Shown piece by piece: positions 456 through 17,512 of a stretch of DNA of 52,335 nucleotides; the first letter of the stretch is position 1, and each line of letters begins with the position of its first letter. This DNA comes from Alphaproteobacteria bacterium UBA4588 (GTDB taxonomy: Bacteria; Pseudomonadota; Alphaproteobacteria; Rhodobacterales; Rhodobacteraceae). Both the position numbers and the translations under genes were made by a program. The stretch lies in the NCBI GenBank assembly GCA_905182195.1, contig CAJJAW010000001.1, positions 256,254 to 308,588 of the forward strand, in the 5' to 3' direction. The notes below the pieces were generated by a model. That model saw only the letters and a program-made list of their open reading frames with translations. It was not told where the DNA came from and did not search any database.

Positions 456-972
456 GTTGGATGGGCTCGCCCCCAAATTCCCTACAGACGGAGATTATTG
501 GGTAGCCGCAGATGCCAATCTGATTGGCCGTGTTCGGTTGTTATCAGCAGCTTCGGTTTGGTTTGGTGCTACATTGCGCGGTGACAATGAGCTTATTGAG
601 GTGGGCGCAGGCTCCAATGTGCAAGAAAACTCTGTTTTGCACACGGATATAGGCTTTCCGCTGATCATTGGTGCCAATTGCACGATTGGTCACCAGGCCA
701 TGCTGCACGGCTGCACGATTGGGGATCAAAGCCTGATCGGCATGGGGGCTATAGTTTTGAATGGGGCTAAAATTGGCTGCAATTGTTTGATCGCGGCAGG
801 GGCTTTGGTGACCGAAGGTAAGATTATCCCAGACAACTCCTTGGTCGTAGGCGCGCCAGGTAAAGTGGCAAGGGTACTGAGTGAGGCAGAGGTTCTGGGC
901 CTACTTAAATCCGCGCAGGGCTATCAAGCCAATATGCGACGCTTCGCCAAGCGCTTGAAAGTCTTAGGCTAG
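445..972 (+). CDS. Gamma-carbonic anhydrase family protein (YrdA/PaaY-like hexapeptide repeat)
   Basis: A 175-residue left-handed beta-helix protein of the gamma-carbonic-anhydrase-like superfamily. Hexapeptide repeats run through most of its length ([20 protein letters not shown], then repeated IG-x4 units). Three histidines that would hold the active-site metal are present, one in VLHTD and two in [10 protein letters not shown] chose the ATG at 445 because family members begin close to a YxLDG-x-P segment; an in-frame start at 409 would add 12 residues lying inside gmk. The gene overlaps gmk by 11 bases. Members of this group are often annotated as carbonic anhydrase or acyltransferase, and the real substrate is usually unknown. 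I would not claim proven CO2 hydration. Confidence 0.88.
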
Positions 973-983
973 GCTTTAGAGCT

Positions 984-2015
984 ATGATTGAATTCAATCA
1001 CATCCTGAACGCCCTGCCTTGGCCGTCTTTGCTTGTTGGACCAGACTTGCGGGTTGGCAAATTCAATTCTGCGGCCCAATCCATGTTTAGGTTGGAAGGA
1101 TCTGACACCCTCTTAGTCAATATCATGCGACACCCCAGCGTGCTTGAAGCTGTTGATGTGAGCCTTACCGCTCAAATTGAGCAGAAAACGCGGTATGTGC
1201 AGAGGCAAATCGAGGGTGAAACCGTATTTAAGGTTCATATTCGCCCAGTGGACCCCACAGCTGGAGTGATGGTCTGTTTTGAAAACATCCAAGCCGCAGA
1301 GCTATTGAACCAGCAGCGTCGTGATTTTGTGGCTAATGTCAGCCATGAACTGCGCAGCCCGTTGACGGTCATGATCGGGGTCCTGGAGACCCTACAGGGC
1401 CCGGCAAAATCTGATCCGTTGGCACAGGAAACATTTCTGGCGATAATGGCGGCTGAGGCGGATCGGATGCGTCTGTTGATCAAGGATTTTCTTGCCCTCA
1501 GCCAAGTTGAGGATTTGCAACGTCAAAGGCCCCAAACGGAAATCAGTATAGCTGCAGTCATTGCGCAGGCCTGCGGCCACGTTGAGCATGCCATGAAGGT
1601 TGCTGGTGTGGAATTTATCTCAAGCGCAGGGGTGGCACTGCCGGCGGTGCTGGGGGACCACACACAATTGGTACAAGTCTTCGTAAATCTTCTGGAAAAT
1701 GCCATTGCCTATGGCGCAGGCGCTCAGAACCCTCGTGTCCGGCTCGACGTTGAAATAGTTGAGTTTGATTTGGAACTTCACATCCCAGTCCTTCGGATTT
1801 GCGTATCGGATACAGGCCCCGGAATTCCGGCGCATTTGGTGCCTCGGTTGACCGAGCGGTTTTTCCGAGTGGATGCACACCGTAGTCTCAACGCAGGTGG
1901 CACAGGGCTTGGTCTGGCTATTGTAAAACATATTCTACAGCGTCACCGCGGGCGCTTGGATATCACCAGTGTTGAGGGCTCAGGCACGACATTTGCTGTT
2001 GTTCTGCCTTTGTGA
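984..2015 (+). CDS. phoR: Phosphate-regulon sensor histidine kinase PhoR, soluble type
   Basis: A 343-residue histidine kinase that would phosphorylate PhoB under phosphate limitation and act as phosphatase when phosphate is plentiful. Residues 1-105 resemble a degenerate PAS fold. The H-box lies around residues 114-127 (FVANVSHELRSPLT, phospho-acceptor His121). The ATPase domain follows with an N-box (NLLENAIAYG), a D-box (DTGPGI) and a G-box (GTGLGLAIVKH). I see no hydrophobic membrane segment, unlike enteric PhoR, so sensing must depend on partners such as PstB and PhoU. It is directly upstream of the pst operon, and its stop codon is only 3 bases before the Pho box. The assignment rests on context plus domain layout and is strong. 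Confidence 0.92.
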   Translation: MIEFNHILNALPWPSLLVGPDLRVGKFNSAAQSMFRLEGSDTLLVNIMRHPSVLEAVDVSLTAQIEQKTRYVQRQIEGETVFKVHIRPVDPTAGVMVCFENIQAAELLNQQRRDFVANVSHELRSPLTVMIGVLETLQGPAKSDPLAQETFLAIMAAEADRMRLLIKDFLALSQVEDLQRQRPQTEISIAAVIAQACGHVEHAMKVAGVEFISSAGVALPAVLGDHTQLVQVFVNLLENAIAYGAGAQNPRVRLDVEIVEFDLELHIPVLRICVSDTGPGIPAHLVPRLTERFFRVDAHRSLNAGGTGLGLAIVKHILQRHRGRLDITSVEGSGTTFAVVLPL

Positions 2016-2018
2016 GCT

Positions 2019-2036
2019 TTGTCACAAAACTGTTAC
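2019..2036 (+). promoter_or_regulatory. Pho box (PhoB binding site) upstream of pstS
   Basis: Two 7-base direct repeats, TTGTCAC at 2019-2025 and CTGTTAC at 2030-2036, are separated by AAAA. This is the 11-base period of the classical Pho box (consensus CTGTCAT repeated with a 4-base AT-rich spacer). It begins just after the phoR stop codon and about 80 bases before the pstS ATG, the expected place for a PhoB-activated promoter driving pstSCAB-phoU-phoB. Confidence 0.85.
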
Positions 2037-2117
2037 AAGAATCGCCTATGACGTCTTCAGATCAATATTGATCTCGCCTCATCAAGATCGGGCGCAATCC
2101 ACCTCGGAGAAGACGTT

Positions 2118-3143
2118 ATGTCAATCGCAAAAACAACTATTTCCACACTTACCGTTTGTGCGCTTGCGGGTTCCGCATACGCGCGCGATAATGTGCAAGT
2201 TGCTGGCTCGTCCACAGTATTACCATATGCTTCAATTGTTGCAGAAGCCTTTGGTGAAAATTTTGATTTTCCAACACCAGTCGTTGAATCTGGCGGATCC
2301 TCATCAGGGTTAAAACGCTTTTGTGAAGGTTTGGGCGAGAACACCATCGACATCGCCAACGCCTCACGTGCGATTAAAGAAAAAGAAGTCAAAGCCTGCG
2401 CTGAAGCTGGTGTTACCGACATTATCGAAGTGCGCATCGGGTATGACGGCATTGTGTTTGCCTCCGGCATCGAGGGTAACCGGTTTGCTTTTACACCGTC
2501 TGATTGGTTTTTAGCTTTATCCGACACTATCTTGGTTGATGGCGCGATGGTGCCTAACACCAACACAACCTGGGCCGATGTGAATTCAGTCATGCCGACG
2601 CAGCCTTTGCAGGCATTTATTCCTGGGACCAAACACGGCACACGCGAAGTTTTTGAGGAAAAAGTGATCTTGGAAGGGTGCAAAACCACGGGCGCACTTG
2701 ACGCTTTGGTCGCGACCAATGGGGGCAATACAAAACAAGCTGAGAGTGATTGCATGGCACTTCGCACAGATGGTGTTTCGGTTGATATCGACGGTGACTA
2801 CACTGAGACCTTGGCGCGCATCGAAGCCAATCAAGATGGAATTGGCGTATTTGGCTTGGCGTTTTACCAAAACAACACCAACAAGTTGCAAGTGGGCACT
2901 ATGTCCGGCGTTGTCCCAAGTGTTGAAAGCATTTCATCTGGTGAATATCCTGTATCACGGCCTTTGTACTTCTACATCAAAGCGGCACACCTGGACGTGA
3001 TCCCTGGTCTGAAAGACTTCGCAGAATTCTTCGTCTCCGACGACATCGCGGGTCCTGATGGTCCATTGGCCGAATATGGTTTGGTCTCTGATCCCAATTT
3101 GGAAGCCACCCAAGAACTTGTGGCAACCGAAACAAAAATGTAA
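2118..3143 (+). CDS. pstS: Phosphate ABC transporter, periplasmic phosphate-binding protein
   Basis: A 341-residue periplasmic binding protein for inorganic phosphate, the capture component of the high-affinity Pst transporter. A signal peptide covers about residues 1-22 and ends with an AYA-R type cleavage site. The mature protein opens with QVAGSSTVLPYA, the phosphate-binding loop of the family. It is followed by the ESGGSSSGLKRFCEG segment and by IDIANASRAI, which also contact the anion. Length is normal. The ATG at 2118 sits 8 bases after a GGAG ribosome-binding site. The gene is the first of the pst operon behind the Pho box, and a hairpin follows it before pstC. Confidence 0.95.
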   Translation: MSIAKTTISTLTVCALAGSAYARDNVQVAGSSTVLPYASIVAEAFGENFDFPTPVVESGGSSSGLKRFCEGLGENTIDIANASRAIKEKEVKACAEAGVTDIIEVRIGYDGIVFASGIEGNRFAFTPSDWFLALSDTILVDGAMVPNTNTTWADVNSVMPTQPLQAFIPGTKHGTREVFEEKVILEGCKTTGALDALVATNGGNTKQAESDCMALRTDGVSVDIDGDYTETLARIEANQDGIGVFGLAFYQNNTNKLQVGTMSGVVPSVESISSGEYPVSRPLYFYIKAAHLDVIPGLKDFAEFFVSDDIAGPDGPLAEYGLVSDPNLEATQELVATETKM

Positions 3144-3153
3144 AGAACGCGAT

Positions 3154-3177
3154 CGGGGAGGGCAAGTGTCCTCCCCG
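3154..3177 (+). promoter_or_regulatory. Intercistronic hairpin between pstS and pstC
   Basis: CGGGGAGG at 3154-3161 is a perfect 8-base inverted repeat of CCTCCCCG at 3170-3177 with an 8-base loop. No T-run follows, so it is not a standard intrinsic terminator. Its place just after the pstS stop suggests 3'-end protection of a pstS message, or partial attenuation that makes binding protein exceed permease. That role is inferred. Confidence 0.7.
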
Positions 3178-3212
3178 CGTCTACGTCGCAACTACTCTGT
3201 TAGGATGATGCT

Positions 3213-4427
3213 TTGGTCTCACTATCATTTCCCTTTGGAGTGACTTTATTTCTTGCCGTGATTGGTTTCTTCGCCGGCAGAGCAAAAGCTACCTCCTCCG
3301 TGAATGGAAATTTTCGGCTGCTGCAAGCTCTCCCGAAGGCTTACGGCCAAACTGTTTTGTTTTCGACCTTAATACCCGCAAGCCTCCTGCTATTCGGTTG
3401 GGCTTTCGTGGTGCGGATCCTGGGGCCAGACTTTGCTGTCCTCCCGGACGTTGTGTTCCAAGGTCTTGTGATTGCGATTGCAACCATTGGCGCTGGGGTT
3501 TCCTACCATTTGATCAAGCCCAGCCAGAGGGCGCGGGCAATCAGTGAACGGTGGATCATGGGTTTGCTAATTGCAGCCTCCGCCCTCGCGATTGTCACTA
3601 CCATCGGCATTGTCCTATCCATGTTGTCAGAAAGCGCTAATTTTTTTCGCCAGCATTCTTGGACTGACTTTTTTTTTGGGGCCGTCTGGGCGCCAAATTT
3701 TAGGGGCGGCAGTGAGCTCAGCATTCTACCGCTGCTTTGGGGGACGCTATATATCAGTTTGATCTCCCTCATCGTAGCCGTCCCAATCGGGCTATTTGCC
3801 GCTATTTATCTGTCTGAATATGCGGGCACGCGGCTGCGCTCTGTAGCAAAACCCGCGATCGAGATTTTGGCAGGCATTCCCACCATCGTTTACGGCCTGT
3901 TTGCCCTGATTACCGTCGGACCAATGCTGCGTGATTTTTTTTCTCAACCTCTGGGGCTCGGCGGCTCATCCTCGTCAGTCATGACCGCGGGTTTGGTGAT
4001 GGGTGTGATGTTGATCCCCTTTGTGTCCTCTTTGTCTGACGATATAATCAACGCCGTCCCACAAGCGATGCGAGATGGATCTTTAGGCCTTGGGGCCACT
4101 AAATCTGAAACCATCCGTCAAGTTGTTGTGCCTGCCGCATTGCCAGGCATTGTGGGCGCTGTGCTGTTGGCCGGATCTCGAGCTATTGGGGAAACCATGA
4201 TCGTCGTTCTGGGAGCCGGGGCTGCGGCACGGTTTGACCTGAATCCTTTTGAAGCCATGACCACTGTCACCGTAAAAATTGTATCTCAGCTCACCGGTGA
4301 CACTGATTTTGCCAGCCCTGAAACGCTGGTGGCATTTGCTTTGGGGCTCTCACTCTTCGTGATCACATTGGGTTTGAATATCGTCGCCCTTGTCATTGTT
4401 CGAAAATATAGGGAGCAATACGAATGA
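3213..4427 (+). CDS. pstC: Phosphate ABC transporter permease PstC
   Basis: A 404-residue inner-membrane permease of the Pst phosphate importer. The N-terminal 150 residues hold three to four hydrophobic helices, an extension found in alphaproteobacterial PstC. The core binding-protein-dependent transport domain follows, with the EAA loop around AMRDGSLGLGATKSETIRQV and the GSRAIGETM segment typical of phosphate permeases. The first possible start in this frame is TTG at 3213: a stop precedes it at 3201-3203, and AGGA lies about 7 bases upstream. GTG at 3240 is the alternative. The stop overlaps the pstA start (ATGA), so the two permeases are translationally coupled. Confidence 0.93.
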   Translation: MVSLSFPFGVTLFLAVIGFFAGRAKATSSVNGNFRLLQALPKAYGQTVLFSTLIPASLLLFGWAFVVRILGPDFAVLPDVVFQGLVIAIATIGAGVSYHLIKPSQRARAISERWIMGLLIAASALAIVTTIGIVLSMLSESANFFRQHSWTDFFFGAVWAPNFRGGSELSILPLLWGTLYISLISLIVAVPIGLFAAIYLSEYAGTRLRSVAKPAIEILAGIPTIVYGLFALITVGPMLRDFFSQPLGLGGSSSSVMTAGLVMGVMLIPFVSSLSDDIINAVPQAMRDGSLGLGATKSETIRQVVVPAALPGIVGAVLLAGSRAIGETMIVVLGAGAAARFDLNPFEAMTTVTVKIVSQLTGDTDFASPETLVAFALGLSLFVITLGLNIVALVIVRKYREQYE

Positions 4428-5764
4428 CTGCCCACAGTACAAAAAAACATGGCTCATTGCTGGTTAAAGATGCGCGGACCCAGCGGCGCAATAACGCAGA
4501 GTTGCGGTTTAGAGCCTATGGCCTCACAGCCGTAATCGTTGGCATCCTAGCGCTGATCGTGCTTTTGGTATCTATATTTAGCAATGGAATATCAGCTTTT
4601 CAGCAAACCAAACTCATGATCACACTTGAGCTACCTGAGGCAAAATTGGATCAAAAGGGTCAGCGCGATTTGGATGTTATGAAAAAAGTCACCACCATTG
4701 GTTATTCAAAAGTTTTAGGCAGTGGTCTGATTGATCAGTTGGATCGATTGGGTGTTGCCACAAATCTCAAAGACAAAGATCTGCGTGAAATTCTCTCGAA
4801 GGAGAGTGCTGCCACTTTGCGAGATGTGGTGCTGGCTGATCCCAGTTTGATCGGGACCACTGTGACAATGGAATTCTTAGCTAATGGTCGTATTGATGGC
4901 TATTTTAAGGGCCGCGTCGATCGTGCCTCAGCGGAATTGGACAAAAATGTGGAGCCGGGCCAACTCGATATAGCTGACGCTTTGGCCGAGCACGGCTTGA
5001 TGTACACTCGGTTTAATTTGGATTTCATCCTCGCGCCGGATGCGTCAGATCAAAGACCAGAAGCTGCCGGCTTGGGCGTCGCCATTCTAGGTTCGATCTA
5101 CATGATGTTGGTGGTCCTGTTTGTGGCGTTGCCCGTGGGCGTAGCGGCCTCCATATATCTAGAAGAATTTGCACCTAAAAACCGTCTAACTGACGTCATA
5201 GAGGTGAATATCTCAAATTTGGCAGCGGTTCCGTCGATTGTTTACGGGATTTTGGGCTTGGCTATTTTTATCAATATGGCGCAGTTCAATCAATCCTCAC
5301 CACTGGTTGGCGGGCTGGTTCTGACGCTCATGACCCTACCGCGTATTATCATCCCGGCGCGCGCTGCGCTCAAGTCAGTTCCACCATCCATTCGTGATGC
5401 AGCTTTGGGGGTGGGGGCGTCACGTATGCAAACAGTGTTTCACCATGTGCTGCCTCTCGCCGCGCCCGGAATTCTCACGGGGGTAATCATTGGCTTGGGT
5501 CAAGCCTTAGGTGAAACAGCACCCTTGCTGCTCATTGGAATGGTTGCCTTTGTCCGTGAATACCCCGCAGCCTTCACGGCAGATGCCGGACTTTTTGGCG
5601 AAGCCTCCACAGCTCTGCCAGTGCAGGTGTTCAATTGGACCCAAAGGGCCGACCCGGCTTTTGTCGAGAGGGCGTCTGGTGCCATCATCGTGCTGCTGGT
5701 ATTTTTGCTTATTATGAATGCACTCGCGATTGTCTTACGGAGGCGTTATGAACGTCGCTGGTAG
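4424..5764 (+). CDS. pstA: Phosphate ABC transporter permease PstA
   Basis: A 446-residue partner permease to PstC. One transmembrane helix near residues 35-55 is followed by a long hydrophilic region (about residues 60-215). The transport domain then begins near residue 220 (LGVAILGSIYMMLVVLFVAL). The EAA-type loop (IRDAALGVGASRMQTVFHHV) and the GLGQALGETAPLLLIGM segment are conserved PstA hallmarks. The extra domain before the permease core makes it much longer than enteric PstA (about 296 residues) and is a known alphaproteobacterial form. The start overlaps the pstC stop by 4 bases. The gap to pstB is 33 bases. Confidence 0.94.
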   Translation: MTAHSTKKHGSLLVKDARTQRRNNAELRFRAYGLTAVIVGILALIVLLVSIFSNGISAFQQTKLMITLELPEAKLDQKGQRDLDVMKKVTTIGYSKVLGSGLIDQLDRLGVATNLKDKDLREILSKESAATLRDVVLADPSLIGTTVTMEFLANGRIDGYFKGRVDRASAELDKNVEPGQLDIADALAEHGLMYTRFNLDFILAPDASDQRPEAAGLGVAILGSIYMMLVVLFVALPVGVAASIYLEEFAPKNRLTDVIEVNISNLAAVPSIVYGILGLAIFINMAQFNQSSPLVGGLVLTLMTLPRIIIPARAALKSVPPSIRDAALGVGASRMQTVFHHVLPLAAPGILTGVIIGLGQALGETAPLLLIGMVAFVREYPAAFTADAGLFGEASTALPVQVFNWTQRADPAFVERASGAIIVLLVFLLIMNALAIVLRRRYERRW

Positions 5765-5797: not shown

Positions 5798-6566
5798 ATG
5801 ACTAATTTGCCCATCAAAATTTCGGCTCGTAACGTAGATGTATTCTACGGGGCCACCCATGCAATCAAGTCAGTAAATGTCGAAATTGCCGATAAAATGG
5901 TGACGTCGTTTATTGGACCATCTGGATGCGGCAAGTCTACTTTTTTAAGATGTATCAATAGGATGAACGATACAATTGACGTATGTCGGGTGACGGGTGA
6001 TATATTGATCGATGCGGAAGACATCTATGATCGCCGGGTTGATCCTGTGCAGCTGCGTGCCAAAGTGGGCATGGTGTTTCAAAAACCAAACCCATTCCCC
6101 AAATCGATTTACGACAATGTGGCCTACGGTCCAAAAATTCATGGCATGGCGAGCAATCAGGTCAGAACTAGATGAAATTGTTGAAAAATCTTTACGTCGG
6201 GCGGCGCTATGGGATGAAGCCAAGGACCGGCTCCAAGAACCTGGGACCGGTTTGTCCGGCGGCCAGCAGCAACGTCTGTGTATTGCACGGGCTGTGGCAA
6301 CCGAGCCGGAGGTACTGTTGATGGATGAGCCATGCTCCGCGCTAGATCCCATCGCCACTGCGCAGATTGAACAATTGATTGACGAGTTGCGCAGCTCCTA
6401 TAGCGTTGTTATTGTTACCCACTCGATGGCGCAGGCCTCACGTGTGAGTGACAGAACCGCATTTTTCCACCTTGGGGAATTGGTCGAATATGGCGATACA
6501 AGCCATATTTTCACCAATCCAAGTGACCAACGCACTGAAAGTTACATCACCGGACGGATCGGATAA
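5798..6566 (+). pseudogene. pstB: Phosphate ABC transporter ATPase PstB, interrupted by a +1 frameshift
   Basis: This encodes the ATPase that powers the Pst importer and also signals to PhoR. The first segment (5798 to about 6160) has Walker A (GPSGCGKST) and the Q-loop (VFQKPNPFP). The second, in the next frame, has the signature motif (LSGGQQQR), Walker B (LLMDEP), D-loop (SALDP) and H-loop (VTHSM), ending ESYITGRIG as in normal PstB. Removing one G at about 6161 joins HGMASNQ to [11 protein letters not shown] and restores an ordinary family sequence. As written, the frame stops at 6173-6175. Everything around it is intact and this is probably the only pstB, so a sequence error is more likely than real loss. 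Confidence 0.9.
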
Positions 6567-7275: not shown

Positions 7276-7962
7276 ATGAGCCTGAAGGCCCGCATCTTAA
7301 TTGTTGAGGATGAAGCCTCACAACTGGCTGTGCTGGAGTATAATCTTACCTCTGCAGGATATGAGGCTGTGAAAGCCACAGATGGGCAGGAGGCGCTGCA
7401 ACTGATTGACGAGCAGATGCCTGACTTGATCTTGCTTGATTGGATGCTGCCGGGTATTTCTGGGATTGAGATTTGTCGTCAGCTCAAGGTACGAAAAGAC
7501 ACGCAGGCCGTTCCGATCATCATGCTCTCGGCGCGTTCTGAGGAAGTGGACAAGGTGCGCGGCTTGGAAACTGGCGCGGATGATTACCTGCAAAAACCCT
7601 ATGGCATTAAAGAACTTCTGGCGCGGGTCAGGTTGCAGCTAAAGCGTGCACGACCAGCCACAACGGGTGCGGAACTGTGGCACGGTGATTTGCGGATGGA
7701 CACGGCGGGGCAGCGCGTGTGGTGCGCGGATCATGAGATTGTGCTGGGGCCACGGGAATATGCATTGTTGCTTGCTTTGATGGAACGGCCCGGCAAAGTG
7801 TTTGGGCGTGGCGCTTTGCTGGATCAGGTTTGGGGGCGTGAGTGTGATGTTGAGACGCGCACTGTGGACGTTCATATCGCGCGCTTACGTAAAGCTTTGA
7901 TAAAATATAAAGGTGAGAATATAATCCGTACAATAAGGGGATCCGGTTACTCATTGTTTTAA
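7276..7962 (+). CDS. phoB: Phosphate-regulon response regulator PhoB
   Basis: A 228-residue OmpR/PhoB-family transcription factor that binds Pho boxes when phosphorylated by PhoR. The receiver domain spans about residues 5-120, with acidic pair Glu11-Asp12, phospho-acceptor Asp55 (LLDWMLPG), a conserved Ser/Thr region (MLSARSE) and Lys in LQKPYG. The winged-helix domain follows (about 130-228), with the recognition-helix region ETRTVDVHIARLRKAL and the terminal IRTIRGSGYSL. It starts directly after the phoU stop, so it is the last gene of the pst-pho unit. Its natural targets in this window are the Pho boxes at 2019 and 16135. Confidence 0.94.
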   Translation: MSLKARILIVEDEASQLAVLEYNLTSAGYEAVKATDGQEALQLIDEQMPDLILLDWMLPGISGIEICRQLKVRKDTQAVPIIMLSARSEEVDKVRGLETGADDYLQKPYGIKELLARVRLQLKRARPATTGAELWHGDLRMDTAGQRVWCADHEIVLGPREYALLLALMERPGKVFGRGALLDQVWGRECDVETRTVDVHIARLRKALIKYKGENIIRTIRGSGYSLF

Positions 7963-10845: not shown

Positions 10846-10911
10846 TGAATAAATACTTTAGCCTAGACTTAATCCACTTGTTTCTCCTAGGCGGCCTTGT
10901 CACAAGCAGAC

Positions 10912-11805
10912 ATGCAAAAGCCACCAGAAATATTATGTATAGGCTCGGTGCTTTGGGACGTCATAGGACGTTCCACCCAAGCTATGCAAGCTGGCTCCGA
11001 TGTTCCTGGGCGTGTCACACGTTTGCCGGGTGGCGTAGCCATGAATATTGCGATGACTTTACGACGTTTTGATTTACGCCCCGCTTTGTTATCTGTGGTA
11101 GGTCAGGATTCAGAAGGGATTGAGTTGATTAGAAAAGCTGAAGCGCTTGATCTAAATATGAATTTTTTGTATAGATCAGAGGACCTGCCAACAGATCAAT
11201 ATTTAGCAATAGAAGGCAGTAACGGCATGATTGCCGCGGTTGCGGACGCCCACTCGCTTGAAGCTGTTGGAGATAAGATACTAGCACCGCTTGAAAATGG
11301 GCTGCTTGGGACGGCAGAAAGGCCGTTTGAGGGATTGATTGCGTTAGATGGGAACTTAACTCTGGCATTGTTGGCACAAATAGCTGCCTCACCGCTGTTC
11401 ACTAAATGTGATTTACGTATTGCACCGGCATCACCAGGCAAAGCCGAACGTCTTTTGCCTCTATTAGGGCACAAAGGTGCTACTCTTTATGTTAATGTAG
11501 AAGAGGCAGAACTGTTGTGCCAACAAAGCTTCTCGGATGCGCAGGTGGCCGCACAGACTTTAGTGGCACGCGGTTCAAACCGTGTCTTGGTGACACATGG
11601 TCCTAAAGTTGCTGCGTTAGCGGATTCGCAGGTTTGTGTTTTGGCCGCGCCCCCTGCCGTACTACCCTCCCGTGTGACAGGCGCAGGTGACACTTTTATG
11701 GCTGCACATATTGCTGCTGAATTGCGAGGTTTGCGTGGAGTCAAAGCTCTGCAATCTGCCTCAAACTCCGCTGCCGCATATGTTGCCGGCAAGTCAGAAG
11801 GATGA
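10912..11805 (+). CDS. psuK: Pseudouridine kinase, PfkB family
   Basis: A PfkB-family sugar kinase of about 297 residues, expected to phosphorylate pseudouridine to pseudouridine 5'-phosphate. The N-terminal segment (ILCIGSVLWDVIGRS), the glycine-rich GGVAMNIAMTLRRF motif and the C-terminal RVTGAGDTFMAAH motif with the catalytic Asp are all PfkB landmarks. The pseudouridine assignment comes from the directly following psuG gene, three bases away, the usual partner. I prefer ATG at 10912; a TTG at 10897 would add five residues, and neither has a strong ribosome-binding site. A general ribokinase function is the alternative if context is ignored. Confidence 0.85.
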   Translation: MQKPPEILCIGSVLWDVIGRSTQAMQAGSDVPGRVTRLPGGVAMNIAMTLRRFDLRPALLSVVGQDSEGIELIRKAEALDLNMNFLYRSEDLPTDQYLAIEGSNGMIAAVADAHSLEAVGDKILAPLENGLLGTAERPFEGLIALDGNLTLALLAQIAASPLFTKCDLRIAPASPGKAERLLPLLGHKGATLYVNVEEAELLCQQSFSDAQVAAQTLVARGSNRVLVTHGPKVAALADSQVCVLAAPPAVLPSRVTGAGDTFMAAHIAAELRGLRGVKALQSASNSAAAYVAGKSEG

Positions 11806-11808
11806 GCA

Positions 11809-12732
11809 ATGCAATTTACTTTTAGTGCAGAAGTAGCAGGAATTCGCAGCGACAATAATTTCAATAAACCAGTAGTCGCATTAGAAAGCACAATTATCAC
11901 ACACGGCATGCCATATCCGCAAAACCTTGAAGTGGCGCGAGCGGTCGAGGACGTAGTCCGCCAGGCCGGCGCAGTCCCCGCTACAATCGCTATATTAAAC
12001 GGGGCATTGCATGTGGGTTTGGACCCCACTCGTCTGACTGATTTGGCACAGTCAGCCAACGTGGCCAAAGTATCTCGGGCCGATATGGCTTTTGTCATGG
12101 CTCAAGGGCGCACTGGTGCCACCACGGTTGCGGCTACCATGATTGTTGCGAATTTAGTGGGAATAGAAGTTTTTGCTACTGGTGGCATTGGAGGAGTCCA
12201 CCGGGGTGCCGAAATGAACTTTGACATCTCCGCCGACCTGCGTGAACTGTCACTTACTCCAGTTATAGTCGTGGCTGCCGGACCAAAGGCCATTTTGGAT
12301 ATACCAAAAACAATGGAAGTGTTAGAGACATATGGTGTGCCAGTAATTGCCTATGGACAGGATGTTATGCCTGCGTTTTGGTCTTCAACAAGTGATGTCC
12401 CTGCCCCGTTGCGCAGCGACAGCGCAGCTGAAATAGCTGCTGGCTTAAGGGCTCGCCAAGCTTTGGGTGTTTCTGGTGGGCAACTGATTGCAAATCCAGT
12501 GCCACAGATAGCAGAAATACCCGCCTCAGAAATCAGCCCACTTATAAAACAAGCTATCTATGAAGCCGATCAAGGTGGAATTTCAGCTAAAGACGTAACA
12601 CCCTTTCTATTAAACCGAATTTTTGAGCTGACCGATGGGAAATCTTTGACCACAAATATAGCTCTGATTAAAAATAACGCGAAACTGGCTGCTCAGATTG
12701 CAATATCTTGCCATAATTTACCTAAAACTTAG
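11809..12732 (+). CDS. psuG: Pseudouridine-5'-phosphate glycosidase
   Basis: A 307-residue enzyme that splits pseudouridine 5'-phosphate into uracil and ribose 5-phosphate, the second step of pseudouridine breakdown. Family features are the ALESTIITHGMPYPQN segment near residues 25-40, the ATIAILNGALHVGL strand, a GATTVAATM motif and the FATGGIGGVHRGAE glycine-rich loop. The length is normal. It follows psuK by 3 bases, so the two form one unit that recycles modified nucleosides from RNA turnover or from outside the cell. Confidence 0.93.
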   Translation: MQFTFSAEVAGIRSDNNFNKPVVALESTIITHGMPYPQNLEVARAVEDVVRQAGAVPATIAILNGALHVGLDPTRLTDLAQSANVAKVSRADMAFVMAQGRTGATTVAATMIVANLVGIEVFATGGIGGVHRGAEMNFDISADLRELSLTPVIVVAAGPKAILDIPKTMEVLETYGVPVIAYGQDVMPAFWSSTSDVPAPLRSDSAAEIAAGLRARQALGVSGGQLIANPVPQIAEIPASEISPLIKQAIYEADQGGISAKDVTPFLLNRIFELTDGKSLTTNIALIKNNAKLAAQIAISCHNLPKT

Positions 12733-14299: not shown

Positions 14300-16120
14300 A
14301 TGGCACATCACCTGGGTTTTATCCATTCATTTATTATAGCGACCTTCATTTGCATTTTGACACCAGTAGGAATAGCACAAGCTGGACCAAAACATGGCAT
14401 AGCTATGTACGGAGAGCCTGCTCTGCCACATGATTTTGTGTCTCTACCCTATGCAAACCCCAATGCACCAAAGGGTGGGACAGTGGTTTCAGCTGAGGGT
14501 GGAACCTTCACATCACTCAACCCGCATGTCCGTAAAGGCAGTGTACCCTGGCAGCTCAGATTTCTTGCTTACGAAAGCCTGATGGGCCGATCTTATGATG
14601 AACCATTTAGCCTTTATGGCTTATTAGCCGAATCAATTGAAACCGACGAGACACGGAGATGGGTTGAATTCTCAATACATCCCGACGCCCGATTCTCTGA
14701 TGGTAGTCCAGTCACCGTTGAAGATGTAATTTGGTCATATGAGACTTTGGGTACAGTTGGACATCCACGTTATCACGGTCTTTGGAAAAAGATTGAAACT
14801 GTAAGCCAAACAGGGCCACGTAAAGTAAAATTCACATTCACAGCTGATGATAGGGAGTTGGTGCTATTGGTTGGATTGCGGCCTATTTTGAAAAAAGCCC
14901 AATGGGACGATAAAGATTTCCAAAACTCCGGTTTGTCAGACATCCCAATAGCCAGTGCACCCTATGTAATTTCAGAATTTGATCCTGGTAATTTTGTACG
15001 CCTGACCCGAAACCCGGAGTATTGGGGCACAGGTATCAGTTTCCGTCGTGGAACCAATAATTTTGACGAAATACGGTTAGATTTTTATGCAGATGGATCA
15101 GTGCAGTTTGAGGCATTTAAAGCTGGAGAATCCTCGTCCTTTCGTGAACTTAATGCTGAGCGTTGGGAAAACTCATATGATTTTGACGCGGTCAGAGATG
15201 GTGACGTAATAAAATCGATTATTCCACATCAACGCCCGAGTGGTATTACTGGTTTCGTTATGAATACCCGACTGCCAAAATTCAAAGACTGGCGGGTGCG
15301 CGAAGCTCTAATTACCGCGTTTAATTTTGAGTTCATTAACCAAACCAATACCGGTGGCCGCCAAAATAGGATAACGTCTTATTATTCTAATTCTGTCTTA
15401 TCCATGCATCCAGGGCCGGCCAAAGGTCGTGAACTTGAGTTTCTAGCGCCGCATATCGCGGATCTTTTGCCGGGAACGTTGGAGGGATACACGCTGCCAA
15501 AATCAGATGGCACAGCCCGTAACCGCAAGAACATCCGCCGCGCCGATGATCTGCTGAATGAAGCGGGCTGGACTGTGCAAGACGGTCAGCGACGCAACGC
15601 GCAGGGCAACCCCTTCGAGATAACTACAATTTTGAAGCAGGGTGACACCGAGAGCCAGTCAATGATGGATATCTATCAGAAGTCGCTGGAGCGTTTGGGC
15701 ATACAACTTAATTCTGAAGTTTTAGATTCTGCCCAGTATAAAGAACGTACGCAGATCTATGATTTTGATATGGCTTATTACCGACGCGGGCTATCGTTAA
15801 GTCCAGGAAATGAGCAGATGCTTTACTGGGGTGCAGATGGAATTAAAAAACCAGGCACACGAAATTGGATGGGAATGAACTCCCCCGCCGCTGAAGACAT
15901 GATAAACCGGCTTGTCAGCTCTAAAAGTCATGATGACTTTCTGGCCGCCGCCCGAGCCTTGGACCGGATTTTAATTGCTGGACGTTATGTAATCCCAATC
16001 CACACCAGCGCCATCAGCCGTTTGGCTCACGTGAAAGAGATTAAATATCCGGGAACGCTGCCAATGTATGGCGATTGGATTGGGTTTTTGCCAGATGTGT
16101 GGTGGTATGAAACACAATAA
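14300..16120 (+). CDS. Extracellular solute-binding protein family 5 (YejA-like oligopeptide type)
   Basis: A 606-residue periplasmic binding protein of ABC family SBP_bac_5, for peptides or related solutes. A signal peptide spans about residues 1-28, ending AQA before GPKHG. The HGIAMYGEPALPHDF opening and the GTFTSLNPHVRKG segment resemble YejA rather than DppA/OppA. The long C-terminal lobe includes FDMAYYRRGLSLSPGNEQ and the WWYETQ end, also YejA-like. Usually yejBEF permease and ATPase genes follow. Here none does: the next gene is a channel, so this component is separated from its transporter or feeds one encoded elsewhere. Confidence 0.87.
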   Translation: MAHHLGFIHSFIIATFICILTPVGIAQAGPKHGIAMYGEPALPHDFVSLPYANPNAPKGGTVVSAEGGTFTSLNPHVRKGSVPWQLRFLAYESLMGRSYDEPFSLYGLLAESIETDETRRWVEFSIHPDARFSDGSPVTVEDVIWSYETLGTVGHPRYHGLWKKIETVSQTGPRKVKFTFTADDRELVLLVGLRPILKKAQWDDKDFQNSGLSDIPIASAPYVISEFDPGNFVRLTRNPEYWGTGISFRRGTNNFDEIRLDFYADGSVQFEAFKAGESSSFRELNAERWENSYDFDAVRDGDVIKSIIPHQRPSGITGFVMNTRLPKFKDWRVREALITAFNFEFINQTNTGGRQNRITSYYSNSVLSMHPGPAKGRELEFLAPHIADLLPGTLEGYTLPKSDGTARNRKNIRRADDLLNEAGWTVQDGQRRNAQGNPFEITTILKQGDTESQSMMDIYQKSLERLGIQLNSEVLDSAQYKERTQIYDFDMAYYRRGLSLSPGNEQMLYWGADGIKKPGTRNWMGMNSPAAEDMINRLVSSKSHDDFLAAARALDRILIAGRYVIPIHTSAISRLAHVKEIKYPGTLPMYGDWIGFLPDVWWYETQ

Positions 16121-16134
16121 TAATTTAGCCATGG

Positions 16135-16152
16135 CTGTCACGGAATTGTTAC
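16135..16152 (+). promoter_or_regulatory. Pho box upstream of the aquaporin gene
   Basis: CTGTCAC at 16135-16141 and TTGTTAC at 16146-16152 are separated by GGAA. This gives the same 11-base period as the pstS Pho box at 2019 and an equally good or better match to CTGTCAT repeats. It lies about 80 bases before the aquaporin start at 16232, like the pstS arrangement, and just downstream of the preceding gene's stop. A weaker third half-site may follow near 16157-16165. Confidence 0.72.
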
Positions 16153-16231
16153 ATAAAAGTTTTACATAAAACCAAATTTATTGATCCTAACTGGTGAGGT
16201 TTTAGCCCCTGTATATGGAATTGGAGCACTA

Positions 16232-16900
16232 ATGGGACGTATGATTTTTGCAGAGTTTCTTGGAACAGCCTTATTGCTCATAAGCGTTGTTGGCAGTGGA
16301 ATCATGGGCGAAACACTTGCAAATGGAAATGTAGCTATTGCCTTGCTTGCCAATGCGATTGCCACTGGCTGCATGCTTTATTGCATTATCACTTTATTTG
16401 GAGCTGTTTCTGGCGCACATTTTAATCCGGTTGTTACGTTAGCTTTTTTGTTGCGAGGTGAGCTACCGGCAATCACAGCGCTTTCTTTTGTGCTGTCGCA
16501 GGTTGCGGGCGGTGTCTGTGGTGTTTGGATTGCGCATTTAATGTTCGATCAATCGATATTACAGCTGTCACAAACTTCGCGCACTGGTCTCAATATTTGG
16601 AGTTCAGAAGTTTTTGCTACATTTGGTCTGTTGCTAGTGGTGTTTGGTGGGATGGCGCAAAACCCAAAAGCAATCCCCGCAATGGTGGGACTTTATATAA
16701 CCGGGGCTTACTGGTTCACCTCTTCTACTAGTTTTGCAAACCCTGCCGTTAGTATAGCACGCAGCCTAAGTGACACATTTTCCGGTATTTCTCCAACGCA
16801 TGTACCCATGTTTATTCTATGTCAGGCGATTGGTTTGGCTATCAGTCTGGTGGTAATTAAATTTGTGTTTACAGCCAAAACCAAAAACCTAGCCAAGTGA
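16232..16900 (+). CDS. Aquaporin/glycerol-facilitator family channel with an NPV first box
   Basis: A 222-residue major intrinsic protein with six hydrophobic helices and two pore half-helices. The first pore box is NPV (residues 65-67, within SGAHFNPVVTL) instead of NPA. The second is a normal NPA (170-172), followed by the selectivity Arg177 in NPAVSIAR. The STSFANPA...SDTFSGI region resembles, from memory, channels found in arsenic-resistance operons (AqpS group). I chose ATG at 16232, with GGAG 5 bases upstream; an upstream TTG at 16181 would add 17 atypical residues. A Pho box precedes it, predicting expression under phosphate limitation. Its last 12 bases overlap the convergent regulator gene. 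The solute is unproven; glycerol, urea or arsenite are candidates. Confidence 0.88.
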   Translation: MGRMIFAEFLGTALLLISVVGSGIMGETLANGNVAIALLANAIATGCMLYCIITLFGAVSGAHFNPVVTLAFLLRGELPAITALSFVLSQVAGGVCGVWIAHLMFDQSILQLSQTSRTGLNIWSSEVFATFGLLLVVFGGMAQNPKAIPAMVGLYITGAYWFTSSTSFANPAVSIARSLSDTFSGISPTHVPMFILCQAIGLAISLVVIKFVFTAKTKNLAK

Positions 16901-17512
16901 TGTTACCCAGAGGATAGTTGCATCTTCTGCGCTTACGGTCACCACATTATGTCCCATTGAAGCATCATAATATACACTATCACCACGACTTAATGCAATG
17001 GGCTCATAAAATTCGGTAAACAAACGAACCAGCCCAGTGAGTACATACAAGAACTCTTCCCCATCATGTCGCACCCAGCCGTCAAATTCATCCATCGACC
17101 TCGCCCGTATGACAGCACGGTAGGGCAACATCTGCTTTTTAGATAAATTATTTGCAAGCAGTTCATGCTCATACGTAACAGTCAGGTGGCTTTGACCTTC
17201 ACCAGCTTTTGTATGCGCCAACCGCCCGTTAATTTGATTATTAACCGGCGGTGTGAATAATTGCGGCACTGATATTTGGAGTCCAACTGCAAGTTTTTTT
17301 AAAGCGTCGTAAGTAGGCGACATTTGCCCATTTTCAATTTTAGATAAGGTGCTACGCGCTAAGCCAGCTTGAGAAGAAGCCTGTTCTAAGGTCCAGTTCC
17401 GCGCCTTGCGTAATTCCCTTACTCTGAGGCCCAAGTCTAGAGGCAGACCATTTTCAAAGCCACCACTTTCACGGGCAATACGTATGATAGATGTTGGGTC
17501 ATTGTCAGCCAT
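16889..17512 (-). CDS. XRE-family transcriptional regulator with C-terminal cupin domain
   Basis: A 207-residue regulator. A helix-turn-helix of the XRE/Cro type spans about residues 28-85 (LGLRVRELRKARNWTLEQAS, then GLARSTLSKIENG). A cupin_2 domain fills the C-terminal part (about 125-205), with the HDGEEFLYVLTG and GDSVYYDASMGHNV motifs that usually bind a small ligand or metal. It is divergent from the acyl-CoA-ligase gene at 17577 with 64 bases between, so that gene is its most likely target. Its 3' end overlaps the aquaporin gene on the other strand by 12 bases. The effector is unknown. Confidence 0.9.
   Translation of the reverse strand: MADNDPTSIIRIARESGGFENGLPLDLGLRVRELRKARNWTLEQASSQAGLARSTLSKIENGQMSPTYDALKKLAVGLQISVPQLFTPPVNNQINGRLAHTKAGEGQSHLTVTYEHELLANNLSKKQMLPYRAVIRARSMDEFDGWVRHDGEEFLYVLTGLVRLFTEFYEPIALSRGDSVYYDASMGHNVVTVSAEDATILWVTSLG

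Follow-up and report, generated by a model that had tools for sequence, protein, structure and literature searches.

Why should the gene for an aquaporin-type channel stand beneath a promoter element of the phosphate-starvation response? The question is raised by a 52,335-nucleotide stretch of Alphaproteobacteria bacterium UBA4588 DNA (the window), in which a 7-4-7 direct-repeat Pho box, CTGTCACGGAATTGTTAC, lies at promoter distance from such a gene (16135-16152, 79 nt 5' of the ATG at 16232). We consider it probable, from sequence comparison, that the gene encodes an AqpS-type arsenite channel belonging to the Pho regulon, and that PhoB would control it as part of an anticipatory detoxification of arsenate. 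The initial annotation had given the channel as 16135-16900; there is indeed a gene there, but its coding region is 16232-16900 only. The features of the locus are as follows.

14300-16120, + strand: gene for a family-5 ABC substrate-binding protein (SBP), the upstream neighbour
16136-16152, + strand: predicted Pho box core, TGTCAC-N5-TGTTAC (22-bp matrix site 16134-16155, 19.5 bits)
16147-16168, + strand: second Pho-box-like site overlapping the first (19.0 bits, to which AT-richness may contribute)
16163-16168, + strand: predicted -10 element TACATA, with its TA at a conserved distance from the box
16223-16226, + strand: GGAG, read from the sequence as a likely ribosome-binding site
16232-16900, + strand: aquaporin (MIP) gene, putatively AqpS-type, 222 aa from ATG 16232, with NPV and NPA motifs and Val after the second NPA
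16889-17512, - strand: gene for an XRE-cupin regulator, a convergent neighbour that overlaps the channel 3' end

The window also carries phoR, phoB and pst genes.

984-2015, + strand: phoR sensor kinase gene (best match TIGR02966, 262.9 bits; cut-off 334.2)
2020-2036, + strand: pstS Pho box, the reference site of the initial annotation, its core 81 nt 5' of the pstS ATG at 2118
2118-3143, + strand: pstS (its single match is TIGR02136, at 126.1 bits against a cut-off of 206.6)
7276-7962, + strand: phoB response regulator gene (TIGR02154, 298.9 bits, over the cut-off of 296.2)

After pstS come pstC, pstA, pstB and phoU, all within the window. The pstB gene is in two pieces that lie in two frames (5798-6566), with 5798-6175 covering profile positions 2-114 and 6012-6566 covering 114-248; this is either an assembly error or a real frameshift, and a real one could leave the Pho regulon switched on. 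Further along, at 10897-12732, a PfkB kinase gene is followed by an indigoidine-synthase-A-like gene, which we take to be a likely pseudouridine catabolism pair.

To score the box, we used a 22-bp matrix trained on the pstS-upstream boxes of 29 relatives in the family, with the window's own pstS box left out. The training boxes were drawn from the 30 best pstS matches (pstS was matched in 110 of 120 genomes), and the search for them was seeded with the window's own pattern, TGTCACN5TGTTAC. With this matrix the window's pst box (2018) scores 27.5 bits and the channel box (16134) scores 19.5; apart from the overlapping site at 16147, the highest score elsewhere in the window is 13.7. The channel box falls below 28 of the 30 pstS sites because its spacer, GGAAT, departs from the AAAAC consensus. 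In the 2.62-Mb genome the exact pattern occurs in two places, before pstS and before the channel; allowing up to one mismatch yields nine sites, against four for a reversed-pattern control. The earlier statement that the box lies about 80 bases before the channel, much as that of pstS does, is thus borne out (79 nt and 81 nt).

Could the match be a chance or AT-rich resemblance? The 111-nt intergenic region is 35% GC and much of the genus is boxless, but a score of 19.5 bits was reached by only one of 20,000 dinucleotide shuffles of that region, and the conservation of the box and the spacing of its -10 element, described below, also speak against an accident, which we judge very improbable. 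The background of the channel loci points the same way: among 1,562,400 positions on both strands, leaving out the 1.5 kb before the channel on its coding strand, none reached 17 bits and the highest score was 16.9.

The product of the gene is a MIP channel, which scores 88 bits against the PF00230 profile (curated cut-off 25). Among the matches listed, its closest named relatives come from Planktomarina/Rhodobacteraceae and are 76-77% identical over the whole protein; the protein at L034 reaches 81% over residues 1-198. The DNA therefore probably comes from a Planktomarina-like Roseobacter. Classical aquaporins have an arginine after the second NPA motif. Here an ANPAV-like signature, with Val at that position, is found in 143 of 145 scorable orthologues, whatever their regulator. 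Orthologues lie inside arsC/arsR gene groups, as expected for an AqpS-type ars channel. The window locus itself is no canonical ars operon: the neighbours of the channel are the SBP and XRE-cupin genes, no arsC is found there, and an ArsR query gave no match within 1.8 kb upstream.

We then compared 172 loci encoding 147 distinct proteins (101 from the family, 46 from other families), in a sample skewed toward close relatives. They comprise the best 30 matches from 295 genomes of the family (counting distant MIPs, 134 of these genomes had a match at E<=0.001) and the best 80 of 339 matches from named organisms. The 385 genomes of the class, 105 of which had a match at E<=1e-15, supplied 28 loci not already in the set from their best 30 and a further 20 that were fetched; the 20 genomes of the genus, 16 with a match, supplied another 14 new ones. 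Of the 101 family loci, 68 carry an ArsC-like gene within 400 nt upstream of the channel; ArsR is absent from 59 of these and present in nine. This linkage supports the arsenite-release hypothesis of the initial annotation, and nothing in the gene context supports its other option, glycerol or phospholipid turnover. The ArsC encoded in these operons has a catalytic Cys and both redox Cys that align with those of Bacillus subtilis ArsC; the best NCBIfam match of the subfamily is the thioredoxin-type arsenate reductase, at 45 bits, far under the cut-off of 174.3.

Family-wide, the box is conserved together with this gene order. With a line of 9 bits, which was picked once the scores were known, a Pho box precedes arsC in 49 of the 59 ArsR-less arsC-aqpS loci of the family, mostly 41-73 nt upstream of it. 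Family loci with neither arsC nor ArsR have one in nine of 33 cases, the window included (8/32 for the others); the 33 include a contig-cut fragment (L222, from genome G686) whose upstream region is unreadable. Outside the family, 7/15 ArsR-less arsC loci and 1/10 loci with neither gene reach the line. An earlier set of 63 loci had given 45 boxes of at least 10 bits and 31 of at least 14, compared with one and none on the reverse strand. Before neighbouring genes of the named loci, used as controls, 6/417 stretches reached 9 bits and 1/417 reached 11, the latter being the arsC site of L060 itself, caught through a spurious ORF. We also considered whether the box belongs to the upstream SBP gene; this was ruled out, as none of 73 SBP genes in named relatives had a site of at least 9 bits before it.

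The -10 element, whose TA was no part of the matrix, keeps a fixed distance from the box. When the 41 arsC promoters scoring at least 12 bits are aligned on their boxes, 98% have a T at position 29 and 98% an A at position 30. Among family sites of at least 9 bits, this TA is found in 45/49 with arsC and 8/9 without (window included), as against 30/1212 for other downstream positions; the counts in other families are 4/7 for arsC boxes and 1/1 without arsC. The window channel (TACATA, 16163) and the own pst promoter both obey the rule. Six of the ten ArsR-less arsC loci of the family that fall under the line also keep TA at the -10 position. In relatives, the pstS promoters have a tandem pair of boxes, and their TA is displaced downstream by 22 bp.

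If the box serves phosphate control, what has become of arsenic control? ArsR is linked to 30 loci, nine in the family and 21 in other families, and a box of at least 9 bits precedes arsC or the channel in none of them; a rescan of the stretches before arsR itself (69-250 nt) likewise found 0/30, with a maximum of 7.1 bits. The box-by-ArsR association has a Fisher p of 6e-14, although relatedness among the sequences makes the test overstate independence. On a quick tree both labels are dispersed. The two are exclusive at the level of sequence, and in arsC-aqpS operons the predicted Pho box would stand in for ArsR, the arsenic sensor.

Within the genus, gene order suggests how the window locus arose. 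Three genomes have the order SBP-box-arsC-aqpS (G681, 16.3 bits; G682, 11.4; G684, 9.4), and the window (19.5 bits) and G677 (14.3) have SBP-box-aqpS without arsC. Judged from these arrangements, the window species has lost arsC, and the predicted box that in most of the family stands before arsC-aqpS is now directly before aqpS. Traces of such a loss may be seen elsewhere: in the 250 nt upstream of the channel at L059, where the channel gene is open, a Pho box is followed by a decayed arsC start. An ATYGG stretch before the ATG, a candidate remnant of the arsC 3' end, occurs in six of 32 arsC-less loci as against 6% of shuffles, and doubles as a ribosome site. A separate observation is that, in the Planktomarina-genus genome G690, two arsC-like fragments (L207 and L208, C1:126095-126512) lie away from the channel.

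The check proposed earlier, conservation of the box before orthologues, comes out in favour of the Pho prediction for the family, where the fixed-distance -10 element adds to it; among near relatives the box is not universal, as only five of 15 readable genus loci have one. The ten boxless loci are six with an SBP-channel gap of 35-38 nt, G675 and G676, where the stretch is degraded, G690, and G683 with its seemingly truncated arsC; a further locus (G686), cut by its contig, is outside the 15. These boxless loci, like the loss of arsC in the window, would fit a box that is a vestige, left by recent descent before a channel that plays no part in the phosphate response and is either weakly expressed or transcribed from the gene upstream. 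However, the half-sites and the -10 TA are intact in both the window and L033, though the remaining intergenic sequence of the two aligns poorly. In addition, boxes before arsC-less channels occur in separate places of the quick tree (the P group has ten rows, and starred branches force at least four changes). We therefore regard a vestige as unlikely, even with one more observation in its favour, which concerns the reductase.

Although arsC is missing from the locus, the genome does encode an arsenate reductase, of the glutaredoxin (Grx) type and unlinked to the channel (108.0 bits, over the cut-off of 106.05). A Pho box on this gene was considered and rejected, as no site was found (best score -5.2 within 200 nt upstream); a vestige would predict as much, and PhoB would consequently not co-induce reductase and channel. 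In the annotated order of pCAR3, arsR-arsC-MIP-arsC(glutaredoxin)-arsH, both ArsC types flank the same channel, which makes substitution by the Grx enzyme plausible. Among 20 genomes of the genus, several of them incomplete and all related, 15 have both the channel and Grx ArsC and four have neither; the remaining one has the channel without Grx ArsC and an LMW arsC that is apparently truncated. Searches of the own genome for other arsenic genes gave no match to ArsB, one match to SBF/ACR3 (19.4 bits, under the cut-off of 24.3) and none to a Planktomarina LMW ArsC query. An LMW phosphatase at C4:44515 was examined as the missing ArsC and rejected, since, by eye, the two cysteines of the ArsC redox relay are missing from it.

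Taken together, the preferred reading of a PhoB-controlled arsenite channel would work as follows. When phosphate is exhausted, PhoR would phosphorylate PhoB, which would bind the box at 16136-16152 and recruit RNA polymerase to the -10 element at 16163, so that the channel is made. The Pst transporter, induced by the same PhoB, would import arsenate alongside scarce phosphate. Cytosolic ArsC, here the unlinked Grx-type enzyme and in most of the family the LMW type of the same operon, would reduce arsenate to arsenite, which would leave through the channel down its own gradient. Detoxification would be anticipatory and not arsenic-induced, because the operon has no arsenic sensor and has a box in place of ArsR. 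Such wiring would protect the cell while toxic arsenate enters along with scarce phosphate.

Arsenite as the substrate is suggested by the gene neighbours and the ANPAV-like signature, and a PhoB-controlled channel might instead carry something else, for example a methylated arsenical, glycerol, or a molecule like silicic or boric acid. MIP channels are often promiscuous, and Val in place of the classical Arg may indicate a wider pore. One relative, on a plasmid (L239, from Ruegeria sp. YS9), also stands beside ArsH, MalY/PatB and a dehydratase. However, the recurrent neighbours are arsC and arsR, and the ArsR-linked members carry the same Val signature in 29 of 30 loci; we regard another solute as unlikely. 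The L239 channel belongs to an ArsR-divergent group (565-5550) whose dehydratase is of the threonine/serine type and which also includes a desuccinylase-like gene; our guess is that its substrate may be an organoarsenical.

The arrangement proposed here can be set beside three known systems. In Sinorhizobium meliloti the gene order is presumably arsR-aqpS-arsC under ArsR-type arsenic control, whereas the window has a Pho box, no ArsR and, by the comparison above, a lost arsC. The likeness lies in an aquaporin as arsenite channel, putative in our case, which in S. meliloti is paired with ars genes, as it is in the relatives studied here; AqpS was described in the ars operon of that species (Yang et al. 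2005, as cited in PMC4435449).

The second system, in SAR11 ecotype 1a.3, has LMWPc_ArsC followed by AqpS, the same order as in the family studied here. According to the text searched of that study (PMC6426599), SAR11 arsC rises 2.3-fold in P-starved cells, and gene frequency is inverse to phosphate. The same source describes arsenate as a phosphate analogue and reports that arsenate/phosphate ratios rise where phosphate is depleted. Neither a Pho box nor a PhoB mechanism is given for the SAR11 pair in that text, in which the phrase 'Pho regulon' is absent, whereas here box and -10 element are conserved in another family, along with a solo channel. PhoB wiring would agree with the reported rise of SAR11 arsC in P-starved cells. 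Against the proposal, the arsenate reductase of MED4 is listed as unexpressed in the part of PMC5111396 that was covered.

The third comparison is with arsenite oxidation, where the passages seen of PMC4563254 and PMC7533571 describe PhoB control: Halomonas HAL1 has a Pho box before aioBA, and in Agrobacterium PhoB1 acts on the aioXSR promoter. There, as is predicted here, PhoB acts directly on arsenic genes; those systems oxidize arsenite, whereas the present one concerns the reduction and export limb, with the box in place of ArsR. ArsR/Pho cross-talk is reported in Agrobacterium (excerpts of PMC3834237, PMC7965956 and PMC4415409). The portion consulted of the RCA genome paper (PMC10675870) notes that some species are without phoBR. 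The main-text portions searched of PMC12981677, PMC8316502 and PMC8829014 had no match to 'arsen' or 'aquaporin', and that of PMC10675870 had none to 'arsen'. In the literature searched, mostly outside subscription journals, we recognised no report of a Pho box before arsC-aqpS or replacing ArsR. What appears already known, from the text seen of PMC6426599, is that arsC-aqpS is linked to phosphate limitation in SAR11; what appears new is the Pho box in place of ArsR.

If arsenite exit is wired to PhoB, detoxification would be predictable from phosphate status alone, and the presence of a Pho box as opposed to ArsR would be a promoter-level marker for those marine bacteria expected to release arsenite when stressed for phosphate. 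We lean, by a little, towards a broader model in which ArsR and PhoB promoters have been swapped repeatedly in marine Alphaproteobacteria, probably SAR11-like ones too, with the result that arsenate defence is feed-forward and responds to scarce phosphate. Several lineages would then have lost arsC and kept the promoter to drive only the channel, relying on another arsenate reductase that is not linked to it.

Two further observations concern more distant genomes. In family f98 (1.2 Mb, 28-30% GC), a Pho-like site with a -10 TA lies 44 nt before arsC in L184 and L186, and a third genome (L185) is without such a site; the genomes are possibly SAR11-like, and the boxes are only suggestive, as a Rhodobacteraceae matrix was applied to AT-rich DNA. 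Of 50,697 phage records, one, MT835669.1 from human faecal samples, encodes a relative of the channel with 43% identity (14775-15419).
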